58,048 bases of DNA, taken from Candidatus Gastranaerophilales bacterium. GTDB lineage: Bacteria; Cyanobacteriota; Vampirovibrionia; Gastranaerophilales; Gastranaerophilaceae. The position numbers were made by a program, and so were the translations under genes. Each line of letters starts with the position of its first letter. The first letter of the stretch is position 1. Below the pieces are notes generated by a model. That model had not been told where the DNA came from. It ran no database searches and saw only the letters and a list, made by a program, of their open reading frames with translations. Where the stretch lies: positions 1 through 58,048 of the forward strand of contig CALVBU010000015.1 of the NCBI GenBank assembly GCA_944325875.1, in the 5' to 3' direction. Shown one piece after another: positions 17,707-54,810 of this stretch.

Positions 17707-17754
17707 AAAAATGTATGTGCAATGTACAAGAGGAAAAGGAAAAAGGAAAAGTAT

Positions 17755-19521: not shown

Positions 19522-20276
19522 AATCGCATATACAAATGCCAAAATTAGTATTAAAGCATTTTGTAGATAGCAAGGGTAGAAGTTATGCTTATGACTTTGC
19601 GGCCAACCGCATTATTTACAGCACTCCCACTGCAATCAATACCGAGATTGATTACTATTCAAAAGAAGCAGAAGCATATCTTAGTAAAAATATTGAAACA
19701 CCCTTTGGGCAAGTTTTGAGCAAACTATTAAGTGTAAAGGAAGGTGAAACTATTAATTTATCTGATGCTGAAGAAGAATATATTAGGGGATATGTATATT
19801 CATTATTCAGCCGAGACATGCAAATGCTCGAAGATGTAAAAAAATACTCAAGAATGTGGGAGTTTATTGACGAGCAAGCAAAACACGATTACAGTGCGAT
19901 TATTGGTGCAATTGTGGCCAAAGAAAAGAAAATTTTGAGTGGTTTTGAACTTACAATACTTAAAAATATCTCTGATATACCTTTTTTGCTCCCTACTTGC
20001 GGAATATATACGTATCAAATGGAAAATGGCGAATATTTTGCAATAGTGCCTATAAGCGAAGATATCGCAATCGTCCTATTTGAAAAGAGTAGAAGTTATA
20101 AATACAAAATAAAAGATGGCATATGTCTGATGGTTGCACAAAAAAAAATGGAATTTTTGAATAATCAGGCTTTTTTGTCACAAAAGCAAAGAGGATATGG
20201 TTTTTTAGTATCATCTAATAAAAATATATTAGAAGCATTAATCGATAACTATAAAACAATGCAAAATAAACAATAG
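19518..20276 (+). CDS. DUF4238-like protein inside the type I R-M operon
   Basis: A 252-residue protein with GTG start overlapping the hsdM stop. HIQMPKLVLKHFVDSKGRSY at the N-terminus and the INTEIDYYSK, ETPFGQVLSKL pattern match the DUF4238 family (which begins with QHyvP..yLk.F). DUF4238 proteins are common in defence islands and their biochemical role is not settled. It has no membrane segment. Insertion between hsdM and the KAP NTPase, with overlapping starts, says it is made with the restriction system, either as an added effector or as a regulator. Confidence 0.7.
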   Translation: MKSHIQMPKLVLKHFVDSKGRSYAYDFAANRIIYSTPTAINTEIDYYSKEAEAYLSKNIETPFGQVLSKLLSVKEGETINLSDAEEEYIRGYVYSLFSRDMQMLEDVKKYSRMWEFIDEQAKHDYSAIIGAIVAKEKKILSGFELTILKNISDIPFLLPTCGIYTYQMENGEYFAIVPISEDIAIVLFEKSRSYKYKIKDGICLMVAQKKMEFLNNQAFLSQKQRGYGFLVSSNKNILEALIDNYKTMQNKQ

Positions 20277-20286
20277 GAGATAAAAA

Positions 20287-21756
20287 TTGAGCAAAGAAGA
20301 TTTTATCGGCAGAGACGAGATAATATCAAAAATTACAGAATTAGTGGACATAATGCCTGCTGATAAGAATTGTTGTATTGCTATTGACGGAGAATGGGGC
20401 AGCGGCAAGTCGTTTGTAATGGACAGGCTAAAGGAGAATTTTGAGAGCAAAGAAAATAACTTTGTTGTCTTTTATGATGCTTGGAAAAACAATTTTTACT
20501 CCGACCCCTTGATAGCAATTCTATATTGTATTTTCGATACTTTGCAAAGTAAGGTAGATATAAAACCCAAAAGAACTCGTAAAGGATACAAAGCCATTAC
20601 TATAAAAGATTGTGACAAAGAAAAGACAAAAAAGATAGTAGGCTTGGTAGATAAGGCTATCAAAGAAAATGGTAGTAAATTTAGTGATGAAATAATAAAA
20701 AATCTAGAATCTATCGGAAGTGCAGGAGCGGTGCTGTATTATGCTATCAGCTTGATAAAGGGTATAATCAAGCAAGCTAAAGCCACAATACTCGATAATA
20801 ATTTGTTTGCAGAATTCAAGTCCTATCAATCATTGCTTGAAGAGGCAAAAGCTACATTAAATTTGATTACAGGCGATAAAGACAAGCCTTCAAAACTTGT
20901 CATATTGGTAGACGAGATAGACAGATGCCTTCCCAACGAACAGCTTGTAATATTAGAAAGATTACATCATCTTTTTGATATAAACAACTGTGCCGTAATA
21001 GTAGCATTGAACAAAAAAGCTATTGTAGAGAGTTACACCAAAATCTATTGCAACGATAAAAAGACTGGCGAAGAGTATCTAAGAAAATTTTTGGATTATG
21101 AATTTGTAATTTCTAAGAGTGAAATTGTTTATTTAAAAAATGCTCTGGAAAAATTAGTAGTCGAAATAAATCAAAAGATAGATGCTAAAAATCTTATAGA
21201 AAAAGAAGATATAGATACTATTGTTGCTTTTTTCAGGTTAGCTATTGTGGAAAGGAAGAGAAATTTAGACGATAACGATAACATATTGATAAGTACAAGA
21301 GAAGCAGAAAAGTTTGTAAGCTCATTAAAAGCATTGCTCAAAAGAATTCCTATCAAAGATTCTGATTATGATGCAATATTGCTTTGGACTGCTTGCGTAG
21401 GTTTATACTACAAAAGATATGCTAGTAGTTCGTATAAAGATTACTTCGTACCTCTAAATAAAAGTAATGGACTTACGGATTTAATTAATTTACCTGAGGA
21501 CTTAGTGAATTATGACAAATCTTTTAAGATAGATGAAACTAAATGTTTATCGATAGGTAATGATAATAAATATTGTATATATTATAATCCTTTGCATAAT
21601 CAAATACAATATCTAATCAATTTGTATCGTTATAAACAAGATACTAGTACTCGATTTATGCTTAATTCATTTTATAGTGGAATAGCTGATTTGCCAAAAT
21701 ATGATTATCATTACGAGATAGCGATACTAAAGGAAGTGGACAAGTATGGACAATAA
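20287..21756 (+). CDS. KAP-family P-loop NTPase
   Basis: A 489-residue protein with TTG start and a preceding AGGAG. Walker A is IDGEWGSGKSFV (about 33-44), Walker B is LVILVDEIDRCLPNE (about 208-222), both typical for KAP NTPases (STAND-related). A hydrophobic stretch (SIGSAGAVLYYAISLIKGI, about 140-158) sits where KAP proteins usually carry inserted membrane helices. KAP proteins occur as sensors or regulators in many anti-phage loci. The next gene, hsdS, starts 11 bases before this stop. With the membrane protein at 23089 it may form a membrane-associated unit linked to the R-M complex. Confidence 0.85.
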   Translation: MSKEDFIGRDEIISKITELVDIMPADKNCCIAIDGEWGSGKSFVMDRLKENFESKENNFVVFYDAWKNNFYSDPLIAILYCIFDTLQSKVDIKPKRTRKGYKAITIKDCDKEKTKKIVGLVDKAIKENGSKFSDEIIKNLESIGSAGAVLYYAISLIKGIIKQAKATILDNNLFAEFKSYQSLLEEAKATLNLITGDKDKPSKLVILVDEIDRCLPNEQLVILERLHHLFDINNCAVIVALNKKAIVESYTKIYCNDKKTGEEYLRKFLDYEFVISKSEIVYLKNALEKLVVEINQKIDAKNLIEKEDIDTIVAFFRLAIVERKRNLDDNDNILISTREAEKFVSSLKALLKRIPIKDSDYDAILLWTACVGLYYKRYASSSYKDYFVPLNKSNGLTDLINLPEDLVNYDKSFKIDETKCLSIGNDNKYCIYYNPLHNQIQYLINLYRYKQDTSTRFMLNSFYSGIADLPKYDYHYEIAILKEVDKYGQ

Positions 21757-23095
21757 AAAGACAAAAGATAGCGGAATAGCTTGGATAGGAAAGATACCAG
21801 AAGATTGGAAAGAAATAAGATTAAAAGAGCTTTTTAATAAAAAACAAGGTGGAGCTTGGGGAGAAGAAGCGAAAGAAAACGAAAACGATAGAGTTTGCAT
21901 AAGAGTAGCGGACTTTGATTTTGAAAGACAAACTATAAAAGAGGGACAGAAGACTGTAAGAAATTACAATAAAGACATTATTTTTAAATTGCAAATGCAA
22001 GGGAACGAACTGTTGATAGAAAAATCTGGTGGAGGAGAAAAAACTCCTGTCGGCAGAAGCATTTTATCTAACGGCCTTGAAGGATATTTGTATGCTAATT
22101 TTATAGACAAATTGCCGATAAAAAGCACAAATCACCCCAAATACATTGCATATTATATGAAGACATTATACCAAAATAACATTGTTATGCCTTATATTAA
22201 GCAAACAACAGGTATACAAAATTTAGATGTAGAGACGCTTTTATTTGAAATTATTTCTGTGCCTAAATATATTATTCAACACCAAATCGCCGATTATCTT
22301 GACAAAAAATGCAGTCAGATTGACGAATTGATAGCCAACAATCAATCTCAGATTGACAAGCTAAAAGAATATAAGCAATCTGTCATCACTCAAGCTGTAA
22401 CAAAGGGCTTGGATCCTAATGCCGAGACAAAAGACAGCGGTATTGATTGGATAGGACAAATCCCTAAAAATTGGAAGGTAATCTCGTTAAAAGCTCTTTT
22501 TAATTTTGGGAAAGGGCTGCCTATAACAAAAGCAGATTTGATACCTAATGGCGTAAAAGTGATAAGCTATGGCCAAATCCATGCTAAATATAATAATATT
22601 GTCTTTATCAACGATAAAATGATTAGGTTTGTAGATGAGAACTATTTACTATCAAATAGTAATTCATTAGTAGAAAAAAATGATTTTATATTTGCGGACA
22701 CGTCAGAAGATTTAGAGGGGGCTGGAGATTTTATCTTTATAGATAAAGATGATACTATTTTTGCTGGATATCATACGATTGTGCTAAAACATAAACAAAA
22801 TCAATCAAATAAATTTTTAGCCTATCTCTTTATGTCGTATCAATGGAAAAATCAAATTCGTTCTAGAGTTACAGGCATTAAAGTTTTTAGTATTTCTAGA
22901 GCTATATTATCAAAAGCTAGTGTCATATTACCACCTGAAGAAGCTCAACACCAAATTGCAGATTATCTTGACAAAAAATGCAGTCAAATAGATAGTCTGA
23001 TTGAGTTAAAACAACAAAAGATAGAAAAATTGCAAGAATACAAAAAATCCTTGATTTATGAATACGTTACAGGGAAGAAGGAAGTAGTATGCTGA
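21746..23095 (+). CDS. hsdS: Type I restriction-modification specificity subunit S
   Basis: A 449-residue HsdS with the normal two-half design. Each half starts with a DSGI.WIG.IP..W segment (residues about 8 and 229), has a variable target recognition domain and ends with a coiled coil starting HQIADYLDKKCSQID. The two halves recognise the two parts of a bipartite DNA site. The conserved segments are almost identical, which permits domain exchange by recombination. Overlaps 11 bases with the KAP gene before it and 7 bases with the membrane protein gene after it. Confidence 0.92.
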   Translation: MDNKKTKDSGIAWIGKIPEDWKEIRLKELFNKKQGGAWGEEAKENENDRVCIRVADFDFERQTIKEGQKTVRNYNKDIIFKLQMQGNELLIEKSGGGEKTPVGRSILSNGLEGYLYANFIDKLPIKSTNHPKYIAYYMKTLYQNNIVMPYIKQTTGIQNLDVETLLFEIISVPKYIIQHQIADYLDKKCSQIDELIANNQSQIDKLKEYKQSVITQAVTKGLDPNAETKDSGIDWIGQIPKNWKVISLKALFNFGKGLPITKADLIPNGVKVISYGQIHAKYNNIVFINDKMIRFVDENYLLSNSNSLVEKNDFIFADTSEDLEGAGDFIFIDKDDTIFAGYHTIVLKHKQNQSNKFLAYLFMSYQWKNQIRSRVTGIKVFSISRAILSKASVILPPEEAQHQIADYLDKKCSQIDSLIELKQQKIEKLQEYKKSLIYEYVTGKKEVVC

Positions 23096-24447
23096 TACGC
23101 TTTTTAGATAATTATAAAGGGAAAAATATTTTTATAGGTGTAGTAATAAGTACGATACGCTTATTATATGCAACAGCTTGTCTTTTTTTTGTAATTGCTT
23201 CGTTATTTTTGCCCAAGGACTTGTCATCTTCCCAAATACTGGGCTTGACTATAGCATGGGGTATTTCTTTAATTTGTGTAATTGATAGTTGCGTAGATGA
23301 TTATTTGAAACAATCTGATAATGTTAGGAGATTTATTTCATTAATTGCAAGTATAGGAACAGTTGGCCTTTTACTTTTCTATTTGCAACGTTATTTTAGT
23401 ATATTCTCTTTAAAAACGACAATCTTTATCTATGTGGCAATAGACTTAATAGCTGTAATAATTAGTTTGCCGATATTTTTGATAAAAGATAAACGGAAAA
23501 TCAAAGTAGAAGCATTGGTGTTGTCTTATCTTTTTACGGCTATTGTATATCTATTTTTTGTTTCGATATTTTATGATGAAGTAGTATTGCTTTATCCTTT
23601 AGGAGCATTGGCAGTATTGGGATATTTATATAGCTACATAAGTTTTTTTATGAATTGTCATCAATTTAATACTAAACCTTGGAAAGCTCGTTTAATTATG
23701 ACTATGGTGGATTTATTGATTGCGACAGCGATTGTAGTCTATATATTATGGTATATTCCTGACACTATATCTGAAATTATGACGCCTATTTTTGCATCGA
23801 TATTAGGTGGATTGTTAACTTTCGGCGGTGTATTGCTTACGTTAAATTATAATAATTTTCAAAAGAAAGAGGATGAAATAAATAAGGCTAAACCATATTT
23901 AAGGCTATGGCCTTTGAATAGCAATCCAACTAATTATCACAAGATAAAAACCGAAAATTTTGAGTGGCTTAATGTGTATGATTTTAAGTTAAACAACGAG
24001 GAATATGAGAGTGTTAAAGATAAGAATTTAATAGTAATATTAAATTTTGCCATACAGCAATCGAGTGATAATATCTGCATAATAACGGGAATAAAAATAA
24101 ACGATGTAATTTATAAGTTAAAAAGTAAACAAGTATTGACAAAAAATGAATCTTTATTTTTTGTTTTTGGAAAAACAATAGAAGTTGCTGATTTTAACAG
24201 TTTGCAAATTATAGCATCTGATATATATGACAATTATTACGCATACGAATTAGAGTTTGAAGAAAACGGGCAAGAAAGATTTTTGAAAGACAATAATCAG
24301 AAGGGAAATTATATAACACCCGATAGTGCATATTTTCCCGATGATTTTAGTTACAAAAAATATCTAATAACTGATATTGGAATGCCACAAAAAATTGACT
24401 ATCGAAAAGAGGAAGAAAATCATGGACAAGACGGAAAAGAGATTTGA
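23089..24447 (+). CDS. Polytopic membrane protein with C-terminal soluble domain
   Basis: A 452-residue protein with about seven or eight hydrophobic segments in the first 250 residues (for example SLICVIDSCVDDYL preceded by TACLFFVIASLFL, and FASILGGLLTFGGVLLTLN at about 236-254), followed by a 190-residue soluble domain with alternating beta patterns (NLIVILNFAIQQ, LQIIASDIYDN). I cannot name the family. It overlaps hsdS by 7 bases and hsdR by 26, so it belongs to the operon. A membrane effector or anchor for the DUF4238-KAP module is an inference from position. Confidence 0.75.
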   Translation: MLIRFLDNYKGKNIFIGVVISTIRLLYATACLFFVIASLFLPKDLSSSQILGLTIAWGISLICVIDSCVDDYLKQSDNVRRFISLIASIGTVGLLLFYLQRYFSIFSLKTTIFIYVAIDLIAVIISLPIFLIKDKRKIKVEALVLSYLFTAIVYLFFVSIFYDEVVLLYPLGALAVLGYLYSYISFFMNCHQFNTKPWKARLIMTMVDLLIATAIVVYILWYIPDTISEIMTPIFASILGGLLTFGGVLLTLNYNNFQKKEDEINKAKPYLRLWPLNSNPTNYHKIKTENFEWLNVYDFKLNNEEYESVKDKNLIVILNFAIQQSSDNICIITGIKINDVIYKLKSKQVLTKNESLFFVFGKTIEVADFNSLQIIASDIYDNYYAYELEFEENGQERFLKDNNQKGNYITPDSAYFPDDFSYKKYLITDIGMPQKIDYRKEEENHGQDGKEI

Positions 24448-27400
24448 ATCGGATATCGAGACATACCTTTTAGAAGAAGGCGGATATATCAAAGGTTCGC
24501 AAGCTACATACGACAAAAGCAAGGCTATTGACTTGCATCTTTTGCGTACATTTATTGCCAACACTCAGCCCAAAGCATGGGAGAGATTTTGCAAAATTTA
24601 CGGGGCTGATTCGGACAAGCAGTTGTACAAAAGATTTGACGAAGAAGTAAATGCAAAAGGTCTTATCGAAGTATTGAGAAAGGGCGTAAAAGACAGGGGA
24701 GTAGAACTTAAGTTTTGTTATTTCAAACCTACCTCAAATCTCAATGCAGAACTCGTCTGTAAGTATGAACAAAACATACTTACTTGTACCCGTCAATTCC
24801 ATTATTCTACTCTCAACAACAATAGTATCGATATGGTGCTTTCGCTCAACGGTATTCCTATTGTCGCCATCGAACTCAAAAACCAACTTACAGGTCAGAG
24901 CGTAGACGACGCTAAAATTCAATTCATGACCGACAGAGAGCCCAAAGAACTGATTTTCGGATTTAACAAGCGAATACTTGTTTATTTTGCGGCTGACTTG
25001 TATGAGGTATATATGACCACCGCATTAAAGGGCGAAAAGACTTATTTCTTGCCTTTTAATCAAGGTTCCAACGGGGCGGGTAACGTGGGCGACGGGGGTA
25101 ATCCCGCTTGCGAAGACGATTATGTTACTTCATATTTTTGGAAAAAGATACTCGCAAAAGATACTCTTATGAATATACTCAAGAGATATCTGAGCGTGCA
25201 AGTCGACGAATATTCAGAAATTATAGACAATCGCAAGGTTACCAAAAAATCTTCGCCCAAAATAATCTTCCCGAGATATCATCAATTCGACGTTGTGGAG
25301 AAAATCGTTAATAGCGTAGAGAATATCGGGGCGGGCAAGAATTATCTTATACAGCATAGTGCCGGCAGCGGAAAATCAAACAGTATTGCTTGGCTTACTT
25401 ACCGCTTGGCGTCTTTGCACAACAAAGCGGACGATAATATATTCGATTCGGTATTTGTCGTAACGGACAGACGCGTTCTTAACAAACAACTCCAAAACAC
25501 CGTTACGGGCTTTGATCATCCCGTAGGTCAAATCGTTACTATCACGGATAAAGATAATTCCGAGGCATTAAAACAAGCCATTGACGACGGCAAGAAAATT
25601 ATAATTACCACCTTGCACAGATTTCCTATTATCTACAAGGAAGTGGGGGCACAAAAAGGCAAAAAGTTTGCCATTATTGTCGATGAAGCACATTCGTCTC
25701 AGACTGGCAATTCTGCCAAAAAGCTTAAAGCCGTGCTTGCCGATACTTCTATAAGTATGCAGGAATATGCCGAAGCCAACGATATAGATATCGACAATAT
25801 AGACGGCGAAGACGAAATGGTACTCGAGATGCTCACCCAAGGCAAACATAACAACTTATCTTTCTTTGCTTTTACCGCTACCCCCAAGCCCAAAACTTTG
25901 GAATTGTTTGGCGAACGTATGCCGGACGGAAGTTATGACGCATTCCATCATTATTCGATGCGACAAGCCATATCCGAGGGCTTTATACTCGATGTACTCA
26001 AAAACTATACCACAATGGAAAGTGCGTGGAGCATAGCCAAGAAAATAAAAGACAATCCCGAATATGCCGAAACGCCTGCTACGCAAGCGATTTTAAAGTA
26101 CAAGAAAAATCATCCTTTTGTAATGCAACAAAAAGTTGAAGTAATCGTCGAGCAGTTCAGGCAAGTTACTTTGTCCAAGATGAACGGAAAAGCAAAAGCG
26201 ATGCTTGTTTCGCCTTCTCGTTGGCATGCTGTCAAATATTACCAGATGATCAAGAAGTATTGCAAAGAAAAAGGTTATGACGACGTCTTGCCTATGATAG
26301 CATTTTCGGGCAGTATCAATATAGACGGAGAAGAATATACAGAGAGCAAAATAAATTCTGAAGACGGAATAAAAATCAGCGAAGCACAACTTCCCGACTT
26401 TTTTGCAAGCGATAATTTCAACTTCTTAATCGTAGCGGACAAGTATCAGACAGGTTTTGACGAGCCAATGCTACATACTATGTTTGTGGATAAAAAACTC
26501 AGAGGAGTAAAGGCTGTTCAGACTTTGTCAAGACTCAACCGTACCTGTTATGATAAGGGCAAGGTAGATACATATATACTTGATTTTGAAAATACCGCCG
26601 AAGAGATAGAAAAATCCTTTAAGCCTTTTTATGAAGATACCCTCCTTGCTTGCTCGTTGGATGCGAATTTGGTATATAGCTATCATGACGCTTTGCTCAA
26701 ATTCTCGCTTTGGAGCGATGAGGATATAGAAAAGTTTGTTCAGATATATTCAAAAGGCGTTCAGACATCTAAAGATTTGGGTAAAATCAGTGCAGTTCTC
26801 AAACCTGCGATTTCAGGATATATGAACCTTACGGACGACAATCAATATACATTCCGTACAGCATTGAAATGCTTTTTGAGATTCTATGCCTATATTACTC
26901 AAATTACCCGTATGTTTGATAAAGACCTTCACAAAACGTATCTTTTCTGTGAATATCTTTACAGGCTGTTGCCTAAAAAGCACAAAGAACAAGTCAATCT
27001 CGATGATGAGATAGTTTTGCTCAATAGTTCGTTGAGAGAAACTTTTAGTGGCTGTATTCAATTGCAACCTACAGCAAAAGACAAAGCTCTCGAGCCGGAA
27101 AAGACTCAAAAGAGTTCGCCTCGCACGGAAAAAAGAGATTTGCTTCAAAACATTATCGACAAAATAAATTTGATGTATCAAGGTAGATTTACAGAGGGCG
27201 ATAAAGTCATTGTAGAAACTATTTTTGACAGAATGTACAACGGCGGTAAAAAACTCAAAAAGCATGCCATCAATACTGACGAAGAAATGTTTACAAAAAG
27301 CATTTTCCCCGAAGAATTCGAAAAAGTCGCTCAAGATTGTTATGCAGAATCCGTTGACAGTTTTTCAAAACTGTTTGAAAATAAAGACTTCTATCAACAC

Positions 27401-27454
27401 GTAATGAACGAAATGGCAAAAGCTCTTTATTTGTCATTGAGGAATAAAAAATAA
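24422..27454 (+). CDS. hsdR: Type I restriction enzyme subunit R
   Basis: A 1010-residue HsdR of normal length. The N-terminal nuclease has the ELK of IPIVAIELKNQ (about 146-152) after DMVLSLNG. The translocase has Walker A HSAGSGKSNS (about 313), VVTDRRVL, DEAH in IIVDEAHSSQT (about 420), FTATPKPKTLELFG and the motif VI segment VQTLSRLNRT. The C-terminal helical part binds the M2S core. The ATG at 24422 after GAGGAAG was chosen over an upstream TTG at 24377 since the latter lies deep in the previous gene. Together with HsdM and HsdS a complete system is present. Confidence 0.92.
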   Translation: MDKTEKRFESDIETYLLEEGGYIKGSQATYDKSKAIDLHLLRTFIANTQPKAWERFCKIYGADSDKQLYKRFDEEVNAKGLIEVLRKGVKDRGVELKFCYFKPTSNLNAELVCKYEQNILTCTRQFHYSTLNNNSIDMVLSLNGIPIVAIELKNQLTGQSVDDAKIQFMTDREPKELIFGFNKRILVYFAADLYEVYMTTALKGEKTYFLPFNQGSNGAGNVGDGGNPACEDDYVTSYFWKKILAKDTLMNILKRYLSVQVDEYSEIIDNRKVTKKSSPKIIFPRYHQFDVVEKIVNSVENIGAGKNYLIQHSAGSGKSNSIAWLTYRLASLHNKADDNIFDSVFVVTDRRVLNKQLQNTVTGFDHPVGQIVTITDKDNSEALKQAIDDGKKIIITTLHRFPIIYKEVGAQKGKKFAIIVDEAHSSQTGNSAKKLKAVLADTSISMQEYAEANDIDIDNIDGEDEMVLEMLTQGKHNNLSFFAFTATPKPKTLELFGERMPDGSYDAFHHYSMRQAISEGFILDVLKNYTTMESAWSIAKKIKDNPEYAETPATQAILKYKKNHPFVMQQKVEVIVEQFRQVTLSKMNGKAKAMLVSPSRWHAVKYYQMIKKYCKEKGYDDVLPMIAFSGSINIDGEEYTESKINSEDGIKISEAQLPDFFASDNFNFLIVADKYQTGFDEPMLHTMFVDKKLRGVKAVQTLSRLNRTCYDKGKVDTYILDFENTAEEIEKSFKPFYEDTLLACSLDANLVYSYHDALLKFSLWSDEDIEKFVQIYSKGVQTSKDLGKISAVLKPAISGYMNLTDDNQYTFRTALKCFLRFYAYITQITRMFDKDLHKTYLFCEYLYRLLPKKHKEQVNLDDEIVLLNSSLRETFSGCIQLQPTAKDKALEPEKTQKSSPRTEKRDLLQNIIDKINLMYQGRFTEGDKVIVETIFDRMYNGGKKLKKHAINTDEEMFTKSIFPEEFEKVAQDCYAESVDSFSKLFENKDFYQHVMNEMAKALYLSLRNKK

Positions 27455-30667: not shown

Positions 30668-31011
30668 ATTTAAAGATGGGAAAGATCTTGTATAGTTTTA
30701 ATTTGGAAAAGATACAAATATATCTAAAGGAATATATTGAAAATTTAGAAAAAAGTTTTTAAGTGTTTCATAAGGGGTTAAGTTGCAAGAAGAAAAGGTG
30801 AAAGAAGATTTAAACTTTTATAATAATGATTTGCTAAAACATCTAGCATACGCAGTATACGGTTCCGCGGCTTATGGAGTAAGTATGTATGGCATGTTTC
30901 TTTTTTACTATATAAAGTATATTAAAGGTTTATAAATTAGCTAAAGAAAGAGGAAATATTCTCAATAGTAACCTTTATTCAAAATATATTAATAATTACC
31001 TTTGGCACCGT
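30668..31011. other. Region with two tiny reading frames of doubtful status
   Basis: A 28-codon frame starts at ATG 30676 (MGKILYSFNLEKIQIYLKEY) and a 50-codon frame at TTG 30783 with AAGGGG before it (HLAYAVYGSAAYG, then a hydrophobic end MFLFYYIKYIKG). The second could be a truncated gene or a small membrane protein. Neither has enough support to call as a gene. Confidence 0.3.
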
Positions 31012-31069
31012 GACGTGTGCTTGTCATAGACAAGTGGCGTCGCTTCGCTCCGCCAGACAAGCACACGTC
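31012..31069. repeat. Long inverted repeat
   Basis: Perfect 14-bp arms GACGTGTGCTTGTC (31012-31025) and GACAAGCACACGTC (31056-31069); an inner stem TGGCG/CGCCA (31035-31039, 31051-31055) lies in the loop. No T-run follows, so it is not a simple terminator. GC is far above the surroundings. Confidence 0.8.
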
Positions 31070-31091
31070 TGAACAACTCTTGGACTTGCTA

Positions 31092-31174
31092 AAATGAAAG
31101 CGAGAGGCAAGCGAAGTTGCCCGCTGATCCGCTTGGGCAATCTTTCGCTTTTTGCCTTCTCGCTATTTTCATTT
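31092..31174. repeat. Second long inverted repeat with nested stem
   Basis: Imperfect arms 31092-31115 (AAATGAAAGCGAGAGGC start) and 31144-31174 (ending TCTCGCTATTTTCATTT), with a perfect inner stem TTGCCC (31117-31122) and GGGCAA (31135-31140). With the repeat at 31012 it forms a 165-bp highly structured segment before an HTH gene of a mobile element; possible origin, transfer or end structure. Confidence 0.65.
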
Positions 31175-31431
31175 GTATTGCAATGTCTGTTAAGAGATTG
31201 TATTTTCTCTACCTCCGTATTTGCCTTTTCGTTTGGCATTGTCGCATAAGCCTCTCAAAAGTAAACGGTCGAAATATCCTTGTTGGTATTCAATGTATAT
31301 TGGGTATTAAGCAAGGATTTTTCTTTGTCCCGTTGACTTTTGGATATTGCCTATTATGGTTGTTTTTCATTAATCGTCTTATGCTCCTTCTCTGCCTGCC
31401 GAAAGGCAAACTAATTTCGGAGGTAAAGAAA

Positions 31432-32064
31432 ATGAAAAACAACAGAAAAGGTTATGAAGTATTTGAGGAAATAATCTCTCCCGACAATGTTATGCGTATG
31501 GGAGAATTACTTGCTTTGCAAGCATTACGATTTATGTGTGGACATAAACATCTACATAGAATGTATGCTAATCTCGCTAGAGATATAGACTACAAGGATA
31601 TACCCGGATATATTCTTACAGACAGCTATGACTTAGCACAAAGTGCTGCATTATTCTTATTAGACTATATGGGTAAATCCGTATACGATACTTGTGTGGA
31701 TAAAAAGAGTAATAAGGTACTTACAATAAAGAGATTAGGATATAAATACCTTTGCCATTTACTATACGAAGAATGGAAACTAAAGAGATATACAGATAGT
31801 ATAGAAGACTTGAATAAAAGCGAAGAACCTTATACAGAGTTTGAACAAGAATATAAAGGAGATTATACAAAATACGATAAGATAATGAGAAAGCTAAAAC
31901 TAAATAAAGGCGAAAAAGAAACACTAAACTGCTATATGCAAGGTATAGGCTTTGTACAACAAGCTAATATGCTTGCTCTTAATCCTTCTACTATATGGAG
32001 AAGAAGAAAAAGTATGCAAAATAAGTATCTTGCTAATATAGAAAATATCAAAAGATTATTATGA
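31432..32064 (+). CDS. Mobile-element HTH protein, sigma region 4-like
   Basis: A 210-residue protein. The C-terminal domain LNKGEKETLNCYMQGIG, QQANMLALNPSTIWRRRKS (about 160-200) is a helix-turn-helix like sigma region 4 or a replication-control protein of small mobile elements. The N-terminal 150 residues are helical with no known motif. The reading frame runs upstream to 31117, but GGAGGTAAAGAA before ATG 31432 gives a convincing start and the upstream part reads as hydrophobic chance sequence. It points to the Thg1-like gene, which runs convergently with 7 bases between them. Confidence 0.7.
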   Translation: MKNNRKGYEVFEEIISPDNVMRMGELLALQALRFMCGHKHLHRMYANLARDIDYKDIPGYILTDSYDLAQSAALFLLDYMGKSVYDTCVDKKSNKVLTIKRLGYKYLCHLLYEEWKLKRYTDSIEDLNKSEEPYTEFEQEYKGDYTKYDKIMRKLKLNKGEKETLNCYMQGIGFVQQANMLALNPSTIWRRRKSMQNKYLANIENIKRLL

Positions 32065-32071
32065 TTTAATT

Positions 32072-32752
32072 TCACTCATTTCTTATTTGGAAAAATATAT
32101 TTTGAGGTTCTTTTTTTATTTTACTATTGGCAAAATCTATAGTTTCAATATGCCAACTATCTTTTTTGGTTATTATATAGCCATATTTTTCACAAGGTTT
32201 ACAGTTATCAAAATTTAATTTTTTATCAAATATTAATTTTTTGCAACCTAGAAGACGCCATTTTAAATAATCTTCAACTTTAGATGAAGGTAGATTAAAT
32301 GCTTTCGCAGAAAAGAAAGCATTATTAATAAAGCTTTCTAATTCTTTTTCGTTTAATTCTATTAGTTCTTTATTAAAATACAGAGTTAATTTGCTCGTAA
32401 AAAGAGAGATTAATTTATTTATTCGATTATTCATATTGGATTGTATATCTTGTCCATCTAAAATAAAAGATACTTCATCGCTAAAGGCGTAAGCTATTCT
32501 TATACTTGTAATATCATTGCATATCTTAAAGGAGCTATCAGCAAGAGCTTTTACGATTCTATGCTTAATATCTTCAGAAAACTTATTATAATATTTATGA
32601 GTAAATCCAATTCCATCAAGATGAATAACAATACATTCATCTGTCCTTAAGCATATGTCACTCTCTCTTATATAATAATCAAAATTTTTACCTATGCCAA
32701 CATATTGTTTTTGTGTAATTTCTTTTTGTGTAATTTTTTTCTGCTTATTCAT
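32072..32752 (-). CDS. Thg1-like protein (3'-5' nucleotidyltransferase family)
   Basis: A 226-residue protein matching the tRNA-His guanylyltransferase palm domain. The metal-binding Asp is in IVIHLDGIGFT (D46), the second in AYAFSDEVSFIL (S91-D92-E93), followed by the RINKLISLFTSKL helix and the FSAKAFNLPSSKVEDYLKWR segment, equivalent to the Thg1 signature F.AR.F.LP...E...Y..WR. Thg1 adds nucleotides in the 3'-5' direction; bacterial and archaeal Thg1-like proteins repair truncated tRNA 5' ends. In a mobile, defence-rich segment it might repair tRNAs cut by anticodon nucleases or make a nucleotide signal; both are inference. ATG 32752 with GTGGAG was preferred over ATG 32767. Confidence 0.8.
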   Translation of the reverse strand: MNKQKKITQKEITQKQYVGIGKNFDYYIRESDICLRTDECIVIHLDGIGFTHKYYNKFSEDIKHRIVKALADSSFKICNDITSIRIAYAFSDEVSFILDGQDIQSNMNNRINKLISLFTSKLTLYFNKELIELNEKELESFINNAFFSAKAFNLPSSKVEDYLKWRLLGCKKLIFDKKLNFDNCKPCEKYGYIITKKDSWHIETIDFANSKIKKEPQNIFFQIRNE

Positions 32753-32990
32753 AATTTTTCTCCACATCAGCTTATATTTTTAATATAACATAAAAACCAA
32801 TAGATGTACAATATAATGCAAGTTAATAATTTATTATTTTGATAAATTCTTATTATATATCATAATAGTTCAAAATACAAACGTCTATCTATTTTAATAT
32901 ATTAAGACGACTTAACTATACAATGTTATAAGGCAATTTTTAATAGGTTGTCTTATTTTTTATGTAAAATTTTCTAATTCTGACTTGACT

Positions 32991-33307
32991 TTTGCTATTC
33001 TCGTGCCTTTTAAGTAGAAGCTTATGTGAGATTAGACAAAAAAATAAGTCATAAAATGGAAACTTTTTACCATTTTCATGGCTAATAAGTAGATAGCTTT
33101 AATTTCAGGGGGTCCATTTTTACTAAATTCGTGGCTATTAAGTGAGGGGTAATTTTGTAAATGTAAAATCTACGCAATATTTTGCATTTAGGGGGTTAAC
33201 TTTTGCCATTCTCATTCCCTTATAAGTGGAGGCCTAAAAAAATACTAGACAAAATTCTTATACTAGACCCCATTATCGCTACTTTTTATTCCCTTAAAAG
33301 TGGAGGA
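32991..33307. repeat. Five degenerate direct repeats upstream of the Rep gene
   Basis: Five copies of a unit with core TAAGTRGAGG start at 33011, 33086, 33139, 33223 and 33297 (the last as AAAGTGGAGG), spaced 75, 53, 84 and 74. Most are preceded by a CTTTTGCCATTCTCRTGCC-like stretch. No coding frame explains them. Possible iterons or regulatory binding sites of the mobile element. The stretch 32753-32990 shows nothing else I can support. Confidence 0.6.
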
Positions 33308-33364
33308 CTTTTTTTCTAAACAGGAAATTAGGTTTCCGGTTTGAAAGATATAATCATTAAAAAG

Positions 33365-33594: not shown

Positions 33595-34527
33595 ATGCCA
33601 TACAGTCAAGCAAAGATATATTTTGACGGGAGTCATTATATAGCTATACCCAAAACAGTTAATCCTTACAGAAGAAAGAAAAATATTAAGATTAAAAAAG
33701 AACTGACCGAGATATTTACAGCTAAGACCGAGAATAAAAAATCGGCTACGGAGGCTCTCACTCCCAAGGAACGTTTTGAGAGATTATACAAGGAAAACAA
33801 CGGAAAGAAAAAGACCGAGAAGATAAAGAATATTACAACAGAAATGGAAAAGGAATTTAAGGATAAAGATAAAGCTAAAGAATTTGTATTAAGAAATATG
33901 GAAAGGATAACACGCAATAAGATAGTAAGGAAAACAAGGCTAGTAAGAAAGTTGTATCTCAATGAATGGAACTGGTTTTGCACTTTTACTTTCGATGATA
34001 GAAAACATAATGAAGACAGTTTTCGCAAGTCATTAAGTAATGTATTAAAGAAAATGGTATACAGGAAAGGTTGGAGATATATAGGAGTGTGGGAACGCTC
34101 ACCTGAAAAGAAGAGATTGCACTTCCACGGTATCTTCTATATTCCCGAAAACTCTATGCCGGGAATACTCGAGAGTAAAAGCGATTACAGCCTTAATACT
34201 CATACAAGGCAAAGCATAAATCAGAATAGTTACTTTTATGAGAAATTCGGCAGAAACGATTTTAACCCTATAAATGTAATACACGAGTTAAGAGATTGTG
34301 CAAATTATCTTATGAAGTACATAGAGAAAAGCGGAGAGAAGCTTACCTATTCTAGGAACATACCGACCTTCTTTAAGTCAGATATTATGGACGAAGATGT
34401 GCTGTGTACCATAGGTCAGGAAGATAGGAAACTTCTTTTAGCAGACAACTTTACTTGCTGGGAAGACGGATGTCTTATAGGGCAAGTAAGTCCCGAAGTA
34501 ATCAGGCAGATGCCGAAGTGTAATTAA
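33595..34527 (+). CDS. HUH endonuclease, replication initiator (G2P/Rep-like)
   Basis: A 310-residue protein with the three landmarks of rolling-circle HUH enzymes: motif 1 FCTFTFDDRKH (about 126-136), motif 2 RLHFHGIFYIP (HUH, about 173-183) and the Tyr-containing motif 3 YLMKYIEKSGEK (about 237-248). A basic N-terminal extension (RRKKNIKIKK) precedes. These enzymes nick the origin and stay covalently bound. It shows that the segment is or was a rolling-circle replicating or transferring element. A large hairpin follows 39 bases after its stop. Confidence 0.85.
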   Translation: MPYSQAKIYFDGSHYIAIPKTVNPYRRKKNIKIKKELTEIFTAKTENKKSATEALTPKERFERLYKENNGKKKTEKIKNITTEMEKEFKDKDKAKEFVLRNMERITRNKIVRKTRLVRKLYLNEWNWFCTFTFDDRKHNEDSFRKSLSNVLKKMVYRKGWRYIGVWERSPEKKRLHFHGIFYIPENSMPGILESKSDYSLNTHTRQSINQNSYFYEKFGRNDFNPINVIHELRDCANYLMKYIEKSGEKLTYSRNIPTFFKSDIMDEDVLCTIGQEDRKLLLADNFTCWEDGCLIGQVSPEVIRQMPKCN

Positions 34528-34712: not shown

Positions 34713-36194
34713 ATGAAAACAGCAGTAATTTATGCAAGATACAGTTCGGACAGTCAATCCGAGCAATCAATCGACGGACAGTTGAGAGTATGCAATGAGT
34801 ATGCCAGATCTCATGACATAACCATTGTCAACACTTATATCGACCGTGCCATGACGGGTACGAACGATAACCGTCCAGACTTTCAAAGAATGATAAAAGA
34901 CAGTAGTCGCAAAGAGTGGGATTATGTTCTGCTTTACAAGCTTGACAGATTTTCTCGTAACAAGTATGAAATGGCAGTTCACAAGAAAACATTGAGAGAC
35001 AACGGAGTCAGAGTTATATCCGCAACAGAATATATACCGGATTCGCCCGAAGCAATTATCTTGGAAAGTATGCTGGAAGGCTATGCAGAATATTATTCGG
35101 CAGAACTTTCGCAGAAGGTAAAAAGAGGTATGAAAGAATCTCGTCTTAAAGGTAATTATACCGGCGGACATTTATTGTACGGCTATAAGGTAGAAAACCA
35201 TAAAGTTGTTGTAGACGAAGAAAAAGCCAAAGCAGTCAGATATATATTTGAGCAGTATGCCATGGGAGTATATGTCAAAGACATTATCTCGGCATTAACG
35301 GCAAAGGGAATATTCAATAAAGGAAAGCCGTTTGCGGAAACAACGATTCACAATATGCTTAGAAATGAAAAATATACGGGCGTATATAGATACAAAGACG
35401 ATGTATTCGATAATATCTTCCCGCAAATTTTGCCAAAGGAATTATATGAAAAAGTCCGCCATAAATCAGAATTAAACAGATACGGCAGACGCAGTATAGA
35501 GACAGTGTATCTATTGCGAAACAAGCTGGTTTGCGGATATTGCGGATGCCCGATAAGTGCGGAAACGGGAACCGAGAAAGTAGGTAAAGTAATAAGGTAT
35601 TATAAATGCCTTGGAAGAAAGCATCGCAACGGCTGTACAAAGGCCACATTAAGAAAAGAGTTTCTCGAAGATTTTGTGGTTGACAATGTTGTCAAACTTC
35701 TATCAGAAAAGCAAACCTGCGACAAGATGATATCCGCGCTTATGCAAAAGCAAGAAGATATAATAACGGACAATGCAGATTTGCAAAGATTGACAAAAGA
35801 ATACAAGACGACAGAATTGCAGATAAGCAACATTATGGCAGCGATAGAAAACGGCGGAACGAGTGCAACGGTTATGAACCGAATGAGAGAACTCGAACAG
35901 AAAAAGAAAGAACTGGAAAAAGCGATAACTATACAAAAGAGCCAAACAGCCGATAGAGTTACGGAAAAAGAAATGCGAGCGTTCTATCAAGAGGCGTTGG
36001 AACTCGAAGCTTACTTGCTGATAAACGTACTGATAAAACAAATAACGCTCTATGACGATAAAATGATTATTACATACAACAGTCCAATAAAAGAAGGTCC
36101 TGACGAAAGTCGGGACTTTTCTTTTTATCAAAAAACTCTTAATATGCCTTATAAAGGGAAGAAAATAAAAATTGAGGTTACATTTGCAGTCTGA
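34713..36194 (+). CDS. Large serine recombinase (site-specific), first copy
   Basis: A 493-residue protein. Resolvase domain: YARYSSDSQSEQSIDGQL with the nucleophile serine, LLYKLDRFSRNKYEMAVHKK and SMLEGYAEYYSAELSQKVKRG. Recombinase domain GHLLYGYKVEN and following; zinc-ribbon CGYCGCP...CLGRKHRNGC; C-terminal coiled coil. Start ATG 34713 with AGGAGG. These enzymes insert and excise elements at att sites close to their own gene. CGTCGAAAGACAAA, 31 bases upstream, also occurs upstream of the second recombinase (40337-40350), which may mark att half-sites. Sequence is clearly related to the second copy but with many differences. Confidence 0.92.
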   Translation: MKTAVIYARYSSDSQSEQSIDGQLRVCNEYARSHDITIVNTYIDRAMTGTNDNRPDFQRMIKDSSRKEWDYVLLYKLDRFSRNKYEMAVHKKTLRDNGVRVISATEYIPDSPEAIILESMLEGYAEYYSAELSQKVKRGMKESRLKGNYTGGHLLYGYKVENHKVVVDEEKAKAVRYIFEQYAMGVYVKDIISALTAKGIFNKGKPFAETTIHNMLRNEKYTGVYRYKDDVFDNIFPQILPKELYEKVRHKSELNRYGRRSIETVYLLRNKLVCGYCGCPISAETGTEKVGKVIRYYKCLGRKHRNGCTKATLRKEFLEDFVVDNVVKLLSEKQTCDKMISALMQKQEDIITDNADLQRLTKEYKTTELQISNIMAAIENGGTSATVMNRMRELEQKKKELEKAITIQKSQTADRVTEKEMRAFYQEALELEAYLLINVLIKQITLYDDKMIITYNSPIKEGPDESRDFSFYQKTLNMPYKGKKIKIEVTFAV

Positions 36195-37369: not shown

Positions 37370-37375
37370 GTGATT

Positions 37376-38515
37376 ATGGATAACGCAAAAGAAATTCAAG
37401 TCGATATCGAAAATTTAAAGCAATTAAGAGATGCTTTGAAAGAAGAAATTATTCAATTAGATGATGAAATTTTATATCAAGGGTTTGGATTGTATAAACC
37501 TCAATATAATTTTGCCGATTTAGATCAATATAAGCAAAGATTGAAAGATATTCGAGATAAGCAAAAGAAAATGATTTGCAATAAACTCGCCGTAATTGTT
37601 GGAACTCAATGGAGGGTTAATGGCAGTGAAAAAGAGGGGCAACGTTTAATTGCTGAAAATTCAAAGCAAATAATTAGGAATTTTAATTTAGAATGTGACT
37701 TGTGCATAGATAAAGTAAAATTTAGTAATTATGATAATGTAAAAGAAAGAATATTTAAAGCGTATGAATTGCAAAACGATTTGAATGCAACAAATAATAT
37801 TGAGATATCATATGATTATTACAAACTAAAAATAGAAGAACTTAATCTTGCTTTTGAATATCAACAAAAGAAAAAAAAAGAAAAAGAAGAATTAAGAATA
37901 AAGCGTGAATTATTAAGAGAAGAAGAAAAAGTCGCACGAGAAATTGAAGAAAAAAGAAAACAATACGAAAAAGAGCAAATTCATTATCAAAACGCATTGA
38001 AAAAACTTGAAGAACAATTAGCGGTTGAACGAAGTGAAGAGCGAAAACAAGTTTTACTCGCAAGAAAAGAAGAAATAGATAACAATTTGATCGATGTAAA
38101 CAAAGCGATGGTTGATTTGGATTATAGAGAAGCTAATCATAGGGCTGGGTATGTTTATATTATTTCTAACATAGGTGCTTTTGGCGAAAACGTGTTTAAG
38201 ATAGGTATGACAAGAAGATTGGAACCGGAAGAAAGAATAGCCGAACTTAGCGGAGCATCTGTTCCATTTAAATTTGATATACATGCTATGATATTTTCGG
38301 ATGATGCTCCAAAGCTTGAAGCTGCTTTACATAGTGCATTTGCAGATAGAAAAATAAATTTGGTAAATGGAAGAAAAGAATTTTTTAGAGTTACACTAGA
38401 CGAAATAAAAAAGGTTGTAGAAGATAATTATGATAAAACAGTTGAATTTGTTAATTTACCAGAAGCAGAACAATTTAGAATTAGTGAAATGATGAGAAGG
38501 AAACAGAATAAATAA
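37376..38515 (+). CDS. DUF4041-like coiled coil fused to T5orf172 GIY-YIG nuclease
   Basis: A 379-residue protein. An N-terminal DUF4041-like part (LYKPQYNFADLDQYKQRLKD) is followed by a charged coiled coil and, from residue about 257, by a T5orf172/GIY-YIG domain: GYVYIISNIGAF, VFKIGMTRR, PEERIAELSGASVPF, LEAALHSAF, GRKEFFRV. DUF4041-GIY-YIG proteins are widespread in phages, prophages and defence islands. ATG 37376 with AGGTGA was chosen over GTG 37370. It follows the SHOCT protein directly. Probably a DNA-cutting member of a two-gene cargo module. Confidence 0.88.
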   Translation: MDNAKEIQVDIENLKQLRDALKEEIIQLDDEILYQGFGLYKPQYNFADLDQYKQRLKDIRDKQKKMICNKLAVIVGTQWRVNGSEKEGQRLIAENSKQIIRNFNLECDLCIDKVKFSNYDNVKERIFKAYELQNDLNATNNIEISYDYYKLKIEELNLAFEYQQKKKKEKEELRIKRELLREEEKVAREIEEKRKQYEKEQIHYQNALKKLEEQLAVERSEERKQVLLARKEEIDNNLIDVNKAMVDLDYREANHRAGYVYIISNIGAFGENVFKIGMTRRLEPEERIAELSGASVPFKFDIHAMIFSDDAPKLEAALHSAFADRKINLVNGRKEFFRVTLDEIKKVVEDNYDKTVEFVNLPEAEQFRISEMMRRKQNK

Positions 38516-38658
38516 TTATAAAGCTTTTAGCGCTTTGGTGTGGGTTTTAATCGCTAACGCTACTGCAAGATTTTTACGCAGCTATTCGAACCCTCGCCAA
38601 GCCTTGATTATTAACCTGAAATGCTTATCTTTTGGCGAAACACTTTGCTTTGAATAAG

Positions 38659-38695
38659 AAAAAGTCCTAAACCAAACTAGGTGTTCGATTTAGGA
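38659..38695 (-). terminator. Terminator of the second recombinase gene
   Basis: TCCTAAA (38665-38671) and TTTAGGA (38689-38695) flanked on the minus strand by CTTTTTC. It overlaps the stop codon. Confidence 0.65.
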
Positions 38696-40225
38696 TCCTC
38701 TTGGCGGCGAGTTATCGCCCTTGTACGAACTTTGAAAGTCAGATAAAGGAGCAGCCTCTTTGGACTGCTTTTCTGTTTCCTTTACCGATTCGATTGAGTG
38801 GTTGTGTTTTTTGAGCGGATCGGCAAAGTAGTAGTTGATGATGATTTTATCGTTGTAAAGAATGATGTCGCGGATAAGATATTTCACGAGAGCTTTTCTT
38901 ACGCCTATATCCTGTACGTCGCCGCATATTGCCTTATTCAGAAATTGAATGACTTTTGCGGGAGTGATTTCTGCGAAGGTTCGCTGTTTTTCCTGTTCTA
39001 TGTCGAAGTCAAGCTGGGATATCTGGGTTTCGAGTTCTTTCAGGCGTTCTTTGGTTTGTTCGGTGATGATGCCTTGTTCGATAGCGGCAATCAGGTTGCG
39101 CGATGCTTTCAGTGCGGCTGTTCGTTTTGTTTCAAGCGATTTGATATTAGCATTGTTTTTTGACTTCTCGTTTATATGTTTGCATAACACCTCTGCTAAG
39201 GTTGTCAACGAGCCGTTGTCTGAAAGAAGTTGCCACGTCGTATTGATGACGATATCTTCGAGTTCTTTCTTGCAAGCGGTTTTCAATGTGCATGGTTTTT
39301 TGTACCTTGAATGCGTTAGGCAAGTATAGTAATAATGCTTTGCACCGGTTTTGCTTGTTCCGCTTATTCCAACCATCAGACGCTTGCAATCTCCGCAGAC
39401 AAGTTTTCCAGAAAGGATAAATTCAAAGATTTCTTTCTTCCTGCCGGGAGCGTGTTTGTTCCCGTCGTGAATGTCCTGTACTTTCTGCCATACAACGTCA
39501 TCAACGATTTTCGGATAGATATTGTCATAAACGGTATCACCGTGTTTTATCTTGCCGTTGTATTTGGTGTTTTGGAGCATTTTATAGATTGCTTTTTCTG
39601 TCAGATATTTTCCTTTCTTGGTGCGGATTCCTCGCTTACGCATTTCCTCGGCTATATAAGCCGCCGTGTAGTTTTGCGCATACAGTCCGAAAATTTCTTG
39701 TACGATTGCTCCTTCTATGGGATTGACGACGTTTTTCTTGTCTACGACGTCATATCCGAATAAGACCGGTCCGCCTGTATAATTGCCTTTCAGATAACTT
39801 TCTCTCAAGCCACGTAAGACTTTCTGGGAAAGTTCCGCCGAATAGTATTGGTTCATACCTTCGAGCAGCGATTCAAGGATTATACCTTCGGGAGAGTCCG
39901 GAATGTTCTCCATAGCGGATACAAGTTTCACTCCGTTTTCTTTCAGTGTGTGCTTATGGATAGTCATTTCGTACTTGTCCCTTGAAAAGCGGTCAAGTTT
40001 ATAAACGATGACGTATTCCCATTGCCGTTTGCTACTTGCTTTGATCATGCGCTGAAAATCGGGACGCATATCGTTTGTGCCGGTCATCGCACGGTCAACG
40101 TATGTATCGACAATAAGAAGGTTATTGCTTTTTGCATAGTTCTGACAGACACGAAGCTGTCCTTCGATGGACTGTTCTGTTTGTGTGTCACTTGAATAAC
40201 GTGCGTAAATCACTGCTTTTTTCAT
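38690..40225 (-). CDS. Large serine recombinase (site-specific), second copy
   Basis: A 511-residue protein with YARYSSDTQTEQSIEGQL, VYKLDRFSRDKYEM, LLEGMNQYYSAELSQKVLRG, a zinc-ribbon and coiled coil. It has the same domain order as the first copy, and its N-terminal region differs at about a third of the residues (visual estimate). It runs towards the first recombinase, with the coiled-coil/GIY-YIG cargo genes between. GC is higher than in the surrounding cargo. A 42-codon leader frame overlaps its start. CGTCGAAAGACAAA is shared with the first copy's upstream region. Confidence 0.92.
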   Translation of the reverse strand: MKKAVIYARYSSDTQTEQSIEGQLRVCQNYAKSNNLLIVDTYVDRAMTGTNDMRPDFQRMIKASSKRQWEYVIVYKLDRFSRDKYEMTIHKHTLKENGVKLVSAMENIPDSPEGIILESLLEGMNQYYSAELSQKVLRGLRESYLKGNYTGGPVLFGYDVVDKKNVVNPIEGAIVQEIFGLYAQNYTAAYIAEEMRKRGIRTKKGKYLTEKAIYKMLQNTKYNGKIKHGDTVYDNIYPKIVDDVVWQKVQDIHDGNKHAPGRKKEIFEFILSGKLVCGDCKRLMVGISGTSKTGAKHYYYTCLTHSRYKKPCTLKTACKKELEDIVINTTWQLLSDNGSLTTLAEVLCKHINEKSKNNANIKSLETKRTAALKASRNLIAAIEQGIITEQTKERLKELETQISQLDFDIEQEKQRTFAEITPAKVIQFLNKAICGDVQDIGVRKALVKYLIRDIILYNDKIIINYYFADPLKKHNHSIESVKETEKQSKEAAPLSDFQSSYKGDNSPPRGS

Positions 40226-54758: not shown

Positions 54759-54810
54759 ACGAATACGATAACGAAACGCAATGTTTTGTTTATGTGCCGG
54801 AGGTGATAAA

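Follow-up and report, generated by a model that had tools for sequence, protein, structure and literature searches.

Thg1 enzymes are, to our knowledge, the only polymerases that run backwards, in the 3'-5' direction. What can such a protein do when it sits on a bacterial mobile element and has lost residues used for that reaction? This question is raised by a gene in the 58,048-nucleotide stretch of DNA analysed here (the window). A conserved Thg1 protein with the metal core but without the activation and transfer residues is a natural test of what makes the reaction run backwards, and the same variant also tests whether the Thg1 fold has gained other uses on bacterial mobile elements. Our preferred reading, tentative at a probability of about 0.45, is that the protein is a palm nucleotidyltransferase derived from a phage-type Thg1 and repurposed as cargo of a serine-recombinase element of gut Clostridia-type bacteria, where it would use a pre-activated substrate or make a different product. 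The gene and its surroundings are as follows.

30997..31430, plus strand: putative structured leader region of the convergent neighbour (from folding and DNA identity to the relative's element)
31432..32064, plus strand: convergent neighbour, open reading frame of 210 aa from an ATG after GGAGG; its stop lies 7 bases from the Thg1 stop
32752..32072, minus strand: divergent Thg1-family gene, 226 aa, ATG at 32752, stop TGA at 32074-32072, intact open reading frame
32753..32815, minus strand: probable own promoter and RBS of the Thg1 gene, TGTACA-17-TATATT with TG (extended -10-like) and GGAG before the ATG
33595..34527, plus strand: replication protein of the REP_ORF2-G2P type (PF23343, E 1.7e-11)
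34713..36194, plus strand: large serine recombinase, distantly CcrB-like (PF00239/PF07508/PF13408)
37370..38515, plus strand: T5orf172/DUF4041 protein, PD-Lambda-1-like, between the recombinases (Pfam; PADLOC E 1.7e-143)
38690..40225, minus strand: second large serine recombinase (Pfam)

Gene, family and predicted fold

The Thg1-like identity given in the initial annotation is borne out by both sequence and fold. The protein matches Pfam PF04446 (Thg1) at 61.2 bits (E 1.2e-16), above the curated cut-off of 29.2, as well as the PHROG family of tRNA-His guanylyltransferases (phrog_4717, E 5.5e-19) and, by direct sequence search, four solved Thg1/TLP proteins (E 7e-7 to 6e-4); NCBIfam and PADLOC models gave no match to it. 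An AlphaFold2 model based on an input alignment of 71 rows had a mean pLDDT of 87.8 and a pTM of 0.82. A fold search of the PDB with this model returned Z scores of 18.8-22.3 to all 14 Thg1/TLP entries listed, with the next row at 8.8, and Foldseek agreed, its best match being BtTLP (E 5.7e-12). The predicted structure is thus a Thg1 palm fold, and with sequence and both fold searches in accord, the assignment of the protein to the Thg1 family and fold is, on sequence and model, beyond doubt.

Compared with BtTLP from Bacillus thuringiensis (PDB 4kgk/4kgm), the fold is the same (Z 20.9, rmsd 2.3 over 195 residues), and the two proteins have the metal triad and the equivalents of S75 and K96 in common. 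Identity in the structural alignment is only 23%, however, and the window protein has neither the arginines of the transfer site nor the segment with the activation-site asparagine. The Thg1 enzymes of eukaryotes (C. albicans 3wbz, human 3otb) also have the same fold (Z 21-22), but the window protein is shorter, lacks the HINNLYN-type segment and is mobile cargo, whereas eukaryotic Thg1 is an essential chromosomal housekeeping gene.

The gene is present as a single copy in the bin and has a low GC content of 25%, distributed over the codon positions (0.33/0.26/0.16) in the pattern of a coding gene. A random open reading frame was ruled out by the Pfam match and by a shuffle test, in which not one of 20,000 shuffled versions kept the frame open. 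In a pattern scan near the gene, promoter-like sites were no commoner than in shuffles, and the probable promoter listed above is a weak consensus match only.

Active-site residues in the window protein and its relatives

We compared the protein with 70 aligned relatives, drawn from viral contigs as well as from genomes of bacteria and archaea. The metal-binding acids (yeast D29, D76 and E77) correspond to D46, D92 and E93, all of which are kept, and the two acid clusters that had been reported intact (LDG, SDE) are indeed present. S91 (S75), K113 (K96), R166 and all nine alignment-wide invariant columns are likewise retained. R27, an arginine in 70/70 relatives, is H44 in the window protein, before DG, and E13 (68/70) is I28. 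The DxR motif of strand 4 reads SAK, with S148 in place of the aspartate (70/70) and K150 in place of the arginine R133 (70/70), turning the family-wide F-D-x-R into F-S-x-K. Further, a deletion of about 35 consensus columns between W-R and a late G has removed the segment that starts with N161 (N in 64/70). The initial annotation had described F.AKAF.LPS as a kept signature, which does not hold since the invariant DxR is SxK there, and had overlooked both the R that has become H ahead of DG and the missing segment that would follow WR.

In BtTLP, K44, S75 and N161 serve the activation step and R27, K96 and R133 the transfer step (PMC3701042). Both sites are incomplete in the window protein. 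Only one of the three transfer-site residues is kept (H44, K113 and K150 for R27, K96 and R133). At the activation site S91 is kept, N161 is gone with its segment and the alignment of K44 is uncertain; K57 might stand in for it, the local alignment again being uncertain. Anantharaman et al. proposed that residues unique to Thg1 form a second site, for adenylation, and both DxR and the C-terminal module have been tied to this site and to the fingers; one of the tandem plant Thg1 domains is without DxR (PMC2904730). In archaea, the minimal enzyme IhTLP is active although its fingers are reduced (PMC6471195), so that residue loss relative to the yeast, human and Bacillus enzymes is no proof of a lost reaction.

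A profile scan identified one true relative, L296, in a genome (G1181) of a clostridial order. The protein has 219 residues, is 56% identical to the window protein over nearly the whole length and scores 62.8 bits against PF04446. It carries the same three departures, namely H before DG, S-x-K (here SGK) and the deletion after WR, and the metal acids and the positions of S91, K113 and R166 are kept in both proteins. Both copies are intact open reading frames. Over 219 codons, pN was 0.27 and pS 0.58 (Nei-Gojobori proportions, computed by script), with synonymous sites near saturation, which indicates purifying selection on the pair. Because pN is low relative to pS and the departures recur in L296, the window gene is probably a conserved variant and not a decaying copy, as judged from two members and a single comparison. 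Patterns derived from the alignment of the two proteins found no relatives in viral contigs, patterns from the window protein alone found no close ones in viral and genome contigs, and none was found on plasmids; the genome-wide scans being capped, further relatives probably exist.

A second divergent group, which we call the YSFKDE family, surfaced through the DNA pattern Y.F.DE in genome contigs, where the matches listed were mostly TLPs of methanogens. The motif YSFKDEIS is common to six Thg1-like proteins, from Clostridia (L173, L221), an Elusimicrobiaceae-labelled source (L171), Anaeroplasmataceae (L136) and the genomes G220 (L005) and G1217 (L295). Like the window protein, these proteins have lost N161, come mostly from gut bacteria and are often encoded beside serine recombinases. 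Unlike it, they keep R27 and DxR, have K for S75 and S for a conserved W, and often have an XRE-type regulator upstream. With K96 also retained, this pattern amounts to a loss of activation-step residues while those of the transfer step are kept. Three loci (L020/L005, L171, L221) have an XRE-type regulator directly upstream, and in three (L020/L005, L171, L295) a large serine recombinase follows downstream. Pairs at 74-77% identity had pN of 0.13-0.15 versus pS of 0.60-0.76. The family thus lends independent, sequence-based support to the idea that mobile elements maintain Thg1-like proteins from which the activation-site asparagine has been lost.

Origin, mobile element and host

A profile of TLPs from viral contigs scored the window protein at 101.5 bits, followed by the YSFKDE-family profile with two outlying rows (71.7 bits; 49.9 bits for the core family), an archaeal-dominated TLP profile (39.6 bits) and the cyanobacterial/operon type (29.3 bits). 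The best-scoring relatives are phage-type TLPs of phrog_4717, for example those of Staphylococcus phage PMBT8, Bacillus phage G, Fusobacterium phage Fnu1 and Mycobacterium phage Hannaconda. At about 22-33% identity they are alike in palm fold, metal triad and, as far as the W-R helix, the order of elements, but they keep R27, DxR and the RN...HKEL segment, all three of which are missing from the window protein and L296. In trees the window protein has a loose position among the phage TLPs, with more than 3 changes per column on its end branch; its exact position is unsure owing to long-branch effects, and a clade with the YSFKDE family was neither demonstrated nor rejected (p-AU 0.264). On these comparisons the protein probably descends from a phage-type TLP. 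Our search of the literature on TLPs in phages or defence returned general papers only.

The gene had been placed in a mobile, defence-rich segment between an HTH protein and a Rep gene. The segment is as described, with two large serine recombinases, Rep, a type I RM system and PADLOC matches of Lamassu, Mza, Hachiman and PD-Lambda-1 type. Rep is supported by PF23343, but the convergent neighbour has no Pfam or NCBIfam match and is HTH-like by eye only. The first recombinase matches the SCCmec CcrB model at E 5.9e-41, which is below the cut-off of that model. Defence-type genes occupy much of the remaining contig (13609-16630, 17722-27454 and 40981-54662). They include the type I RM system at 17722-27454 with a KAP NTPase (PDC-S20-like) inside, PDC-M36A-like, PD-Lambda-1-like, Lamassu-type LmuA/LmuB-like and MzaB-E-like proteins, a HamB-like (Hachiman-type) helicase, a cytosine methylase, a Vsr endonuclease and an HNH protein.

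Three stretches of DNA are common to the window and the G1181 genome. The Thg1 genes are 68.5% identical (blastn), window positions 30997-31496 are shared at 71.6% (about 72% over 517 aligned bases with L298:1379-1888), and positions 38656-38839, where the second recombinase has its 3' end, match at 88% identity (blastn) a stretch that lies some 140 bases away from the gene for L296. The stretches stand in a different arrangement in the two genomes. This shared DNA links both genes to a single kind of mobile element with serine recombinases, and the Thg1 gene thus travels with elements of this kind.

The 211 bases at 30990-31200 fold far better than their own shuffles (z -7.9) and are a candidate leader or attenuator for the convergent gene; no Rfam family matched region 30990-31430. 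Within the latter, a stretch of 60 bases was found again, at 90% identity, in the faecal phage record MT835493. Upstream of Rep, two 27-base repeats (33209-33235 and 33283-33309) are 85% alike at a spacing of 74 bases and are possible origin repeats.

Thg1 genes are sporadic in the surveyed genomes, with 4/288 in the bin's family, 5/383 in its order, 13/386 in its phylum and 5/391 in a clostridial class, while L296 is the single hit among 41 genomes of its own family. These counts rule out a housekeeping gene conserved across the clade, the finding that according to the initial annotation would have spoken against its view, and fit mobile cargo. Most of these genes encode ordinary TLPs, several of them with a PNK-like kinase next door, which was of the AAA_33 family in both cases tested. 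In G012 (locus L024, 7231-16016), an RNA-repair cluster combines Thg1 with an AAA_33 kinase, a DUF2828/DUF7788 protein, RtcB, RlaP and, by eye, two WYL-like regulators; in the clostridial locus L253, Thg1 likewise adjoins a PNK-like kinase. An ordinary phage-type Thg1 was also seen on a 140-kb phage-like contig from the same bacterial family as the bin (L025, G385:C183).

The contig itself is probably mis-binned, its composition and matches pointing to Clostridia-like DNA in a MAG that, judging from its larger relatives, is probably of cyanobacterial lineage (Vampirovibrionia-like). The other contigs of the bin correlate with one another in tetranucleotide usage at r 0.57-0.78 and have GC contents of 0.30-0.34, whereas pieces of the window contig reach only r 0.1-0.54 against them and its ends have a GC of 0.37-0.43. 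For the LexA encoded at 54781, a search of 12 other genomes from the genus of the bin found no match, but 33-45% matches were present in 9/12 genomes from which loci labelled as Clostridia, Christensenellaceae, Lachnospiraceae and other groups derive. Examination of the host tRNA-His, proposed as a check in the initial annotation, showed that the bin encodes G-1 opposite C73 and therefore does not need a G-1-adding enzyme; this says little about the true host because the contig appears to be foreign to the bin.

Possible activities

With its palm domain and three metal acids, the window protein may still bind metal and NTP and transfer a nucleotide. Loss of the N161 segment would have abolished activation of a 5'-monophosphate end, and loss of R27 and the DxR arginine R133 would have removed residues that hold the incoming NTP. 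The standard adenylylate-then-extend 3'-5' reaction on 5'-monophosphate tRNA would consequently not be used. Nucleotide transfer without activation of the 5' end by the enzyme itself would call for a substrate that is already activated, such as 5'-triphosphate RNA, or for a different product. Since evolution has kept the losses in L296, a different job is probable, and the benefit would probably go to the element, either in its host or against rivals. A bolder version, in which this Thg1 lineage has left 3'-5' tRNA repair entirely and extends 5'-triphosphate RNA or makes a nucleotide messenger in conflicts of element, host and rivals, is in our estimate quite unlikely.

The initial annotation had suggested that the protein counters tRNA-cutting defence, as an ordinary TLP adding nucleotides 3'-5' to truncated or nuclease-damaged tRNAs. 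We consider this rather unlikely. The fold is fully that of Thg1, the closest profile is that of phage TLPs, which in some phages are encoded near PNK, RNA ligase or tRNA genes, and the metal triad is kept together with the S75 and K96 equivalents. However, R27, DxR and N161 are all absent, and neither a PNK-like kinase nor an RNA ligase adjoins the gene, unlike in the Thg1 operons of G012 and L253, its neighbours being the open reading frame without a family and Rep. No recognised anticodon nuclease is present among the window proteins scanned, and the G-1 already encoded by the bin's tRNA-His also speaks against a repair role, if only weakly for a contig that is probably foreign to that bin. 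Canonical tRNA repair is thus less likely than first supposed.

It is likewise unlikely that the protein is a catalytically dead or nearly dead Thg1 that binds RNA or nucleotides, for example as a decoy, sponge or regulator for the element. The joint loss of several invariant active-site residues together with a C-terminal segment would suit such a binder, as would the long end branch, but a dead enzyme need not retain the metal acids, S91, K113 and R166, which both members do.

A signalling role, which the initial annotation had also raised, gained no support and met no contradiction. A nucleotide-messenger synthase, making cyclic or linear oligonucleotides for defence or sensing as a GGDEF- or mCpol-like cyclase, is very unlikely. 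The Thg1 palm is related to GGDEF and CRISPR polymerase palms (PMC2904730), the palms that make c-di-GMP and CRISPR messengers, mCpol makes cyclic dinucleotides in Panoptes (PMC12657218), and weak palm matches to Cas10 and cyclases stand below the Thg1 rows in our fold searches. Removal of the RNA-end activation site would also take away the RNA-specific chemistry. The window protein and mCpol/Panoptes OptS belong to the same broad palm class and occur in defence contexts, yet in sequence and fold the former is far nearer to Thg1 than to GGDEF, Cas10 or mCpol/OptS. No OptE-type effector was recognised next to the gene, nor any effector with a nucleotide sensor (CARF, SAVED, S-2TM-beta) among the scanned neighbours, some of which are without a family match.

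Decay into a non-functional phage TLP remnant, which the GC of 25%, the high divergence and the lost invariant residues might suggest, can be largely set aside, given open reading frames that are intact in two genomes, the same departures at 56% identity, a pN less than half of pS and codon-position GC values as in a coding gene.
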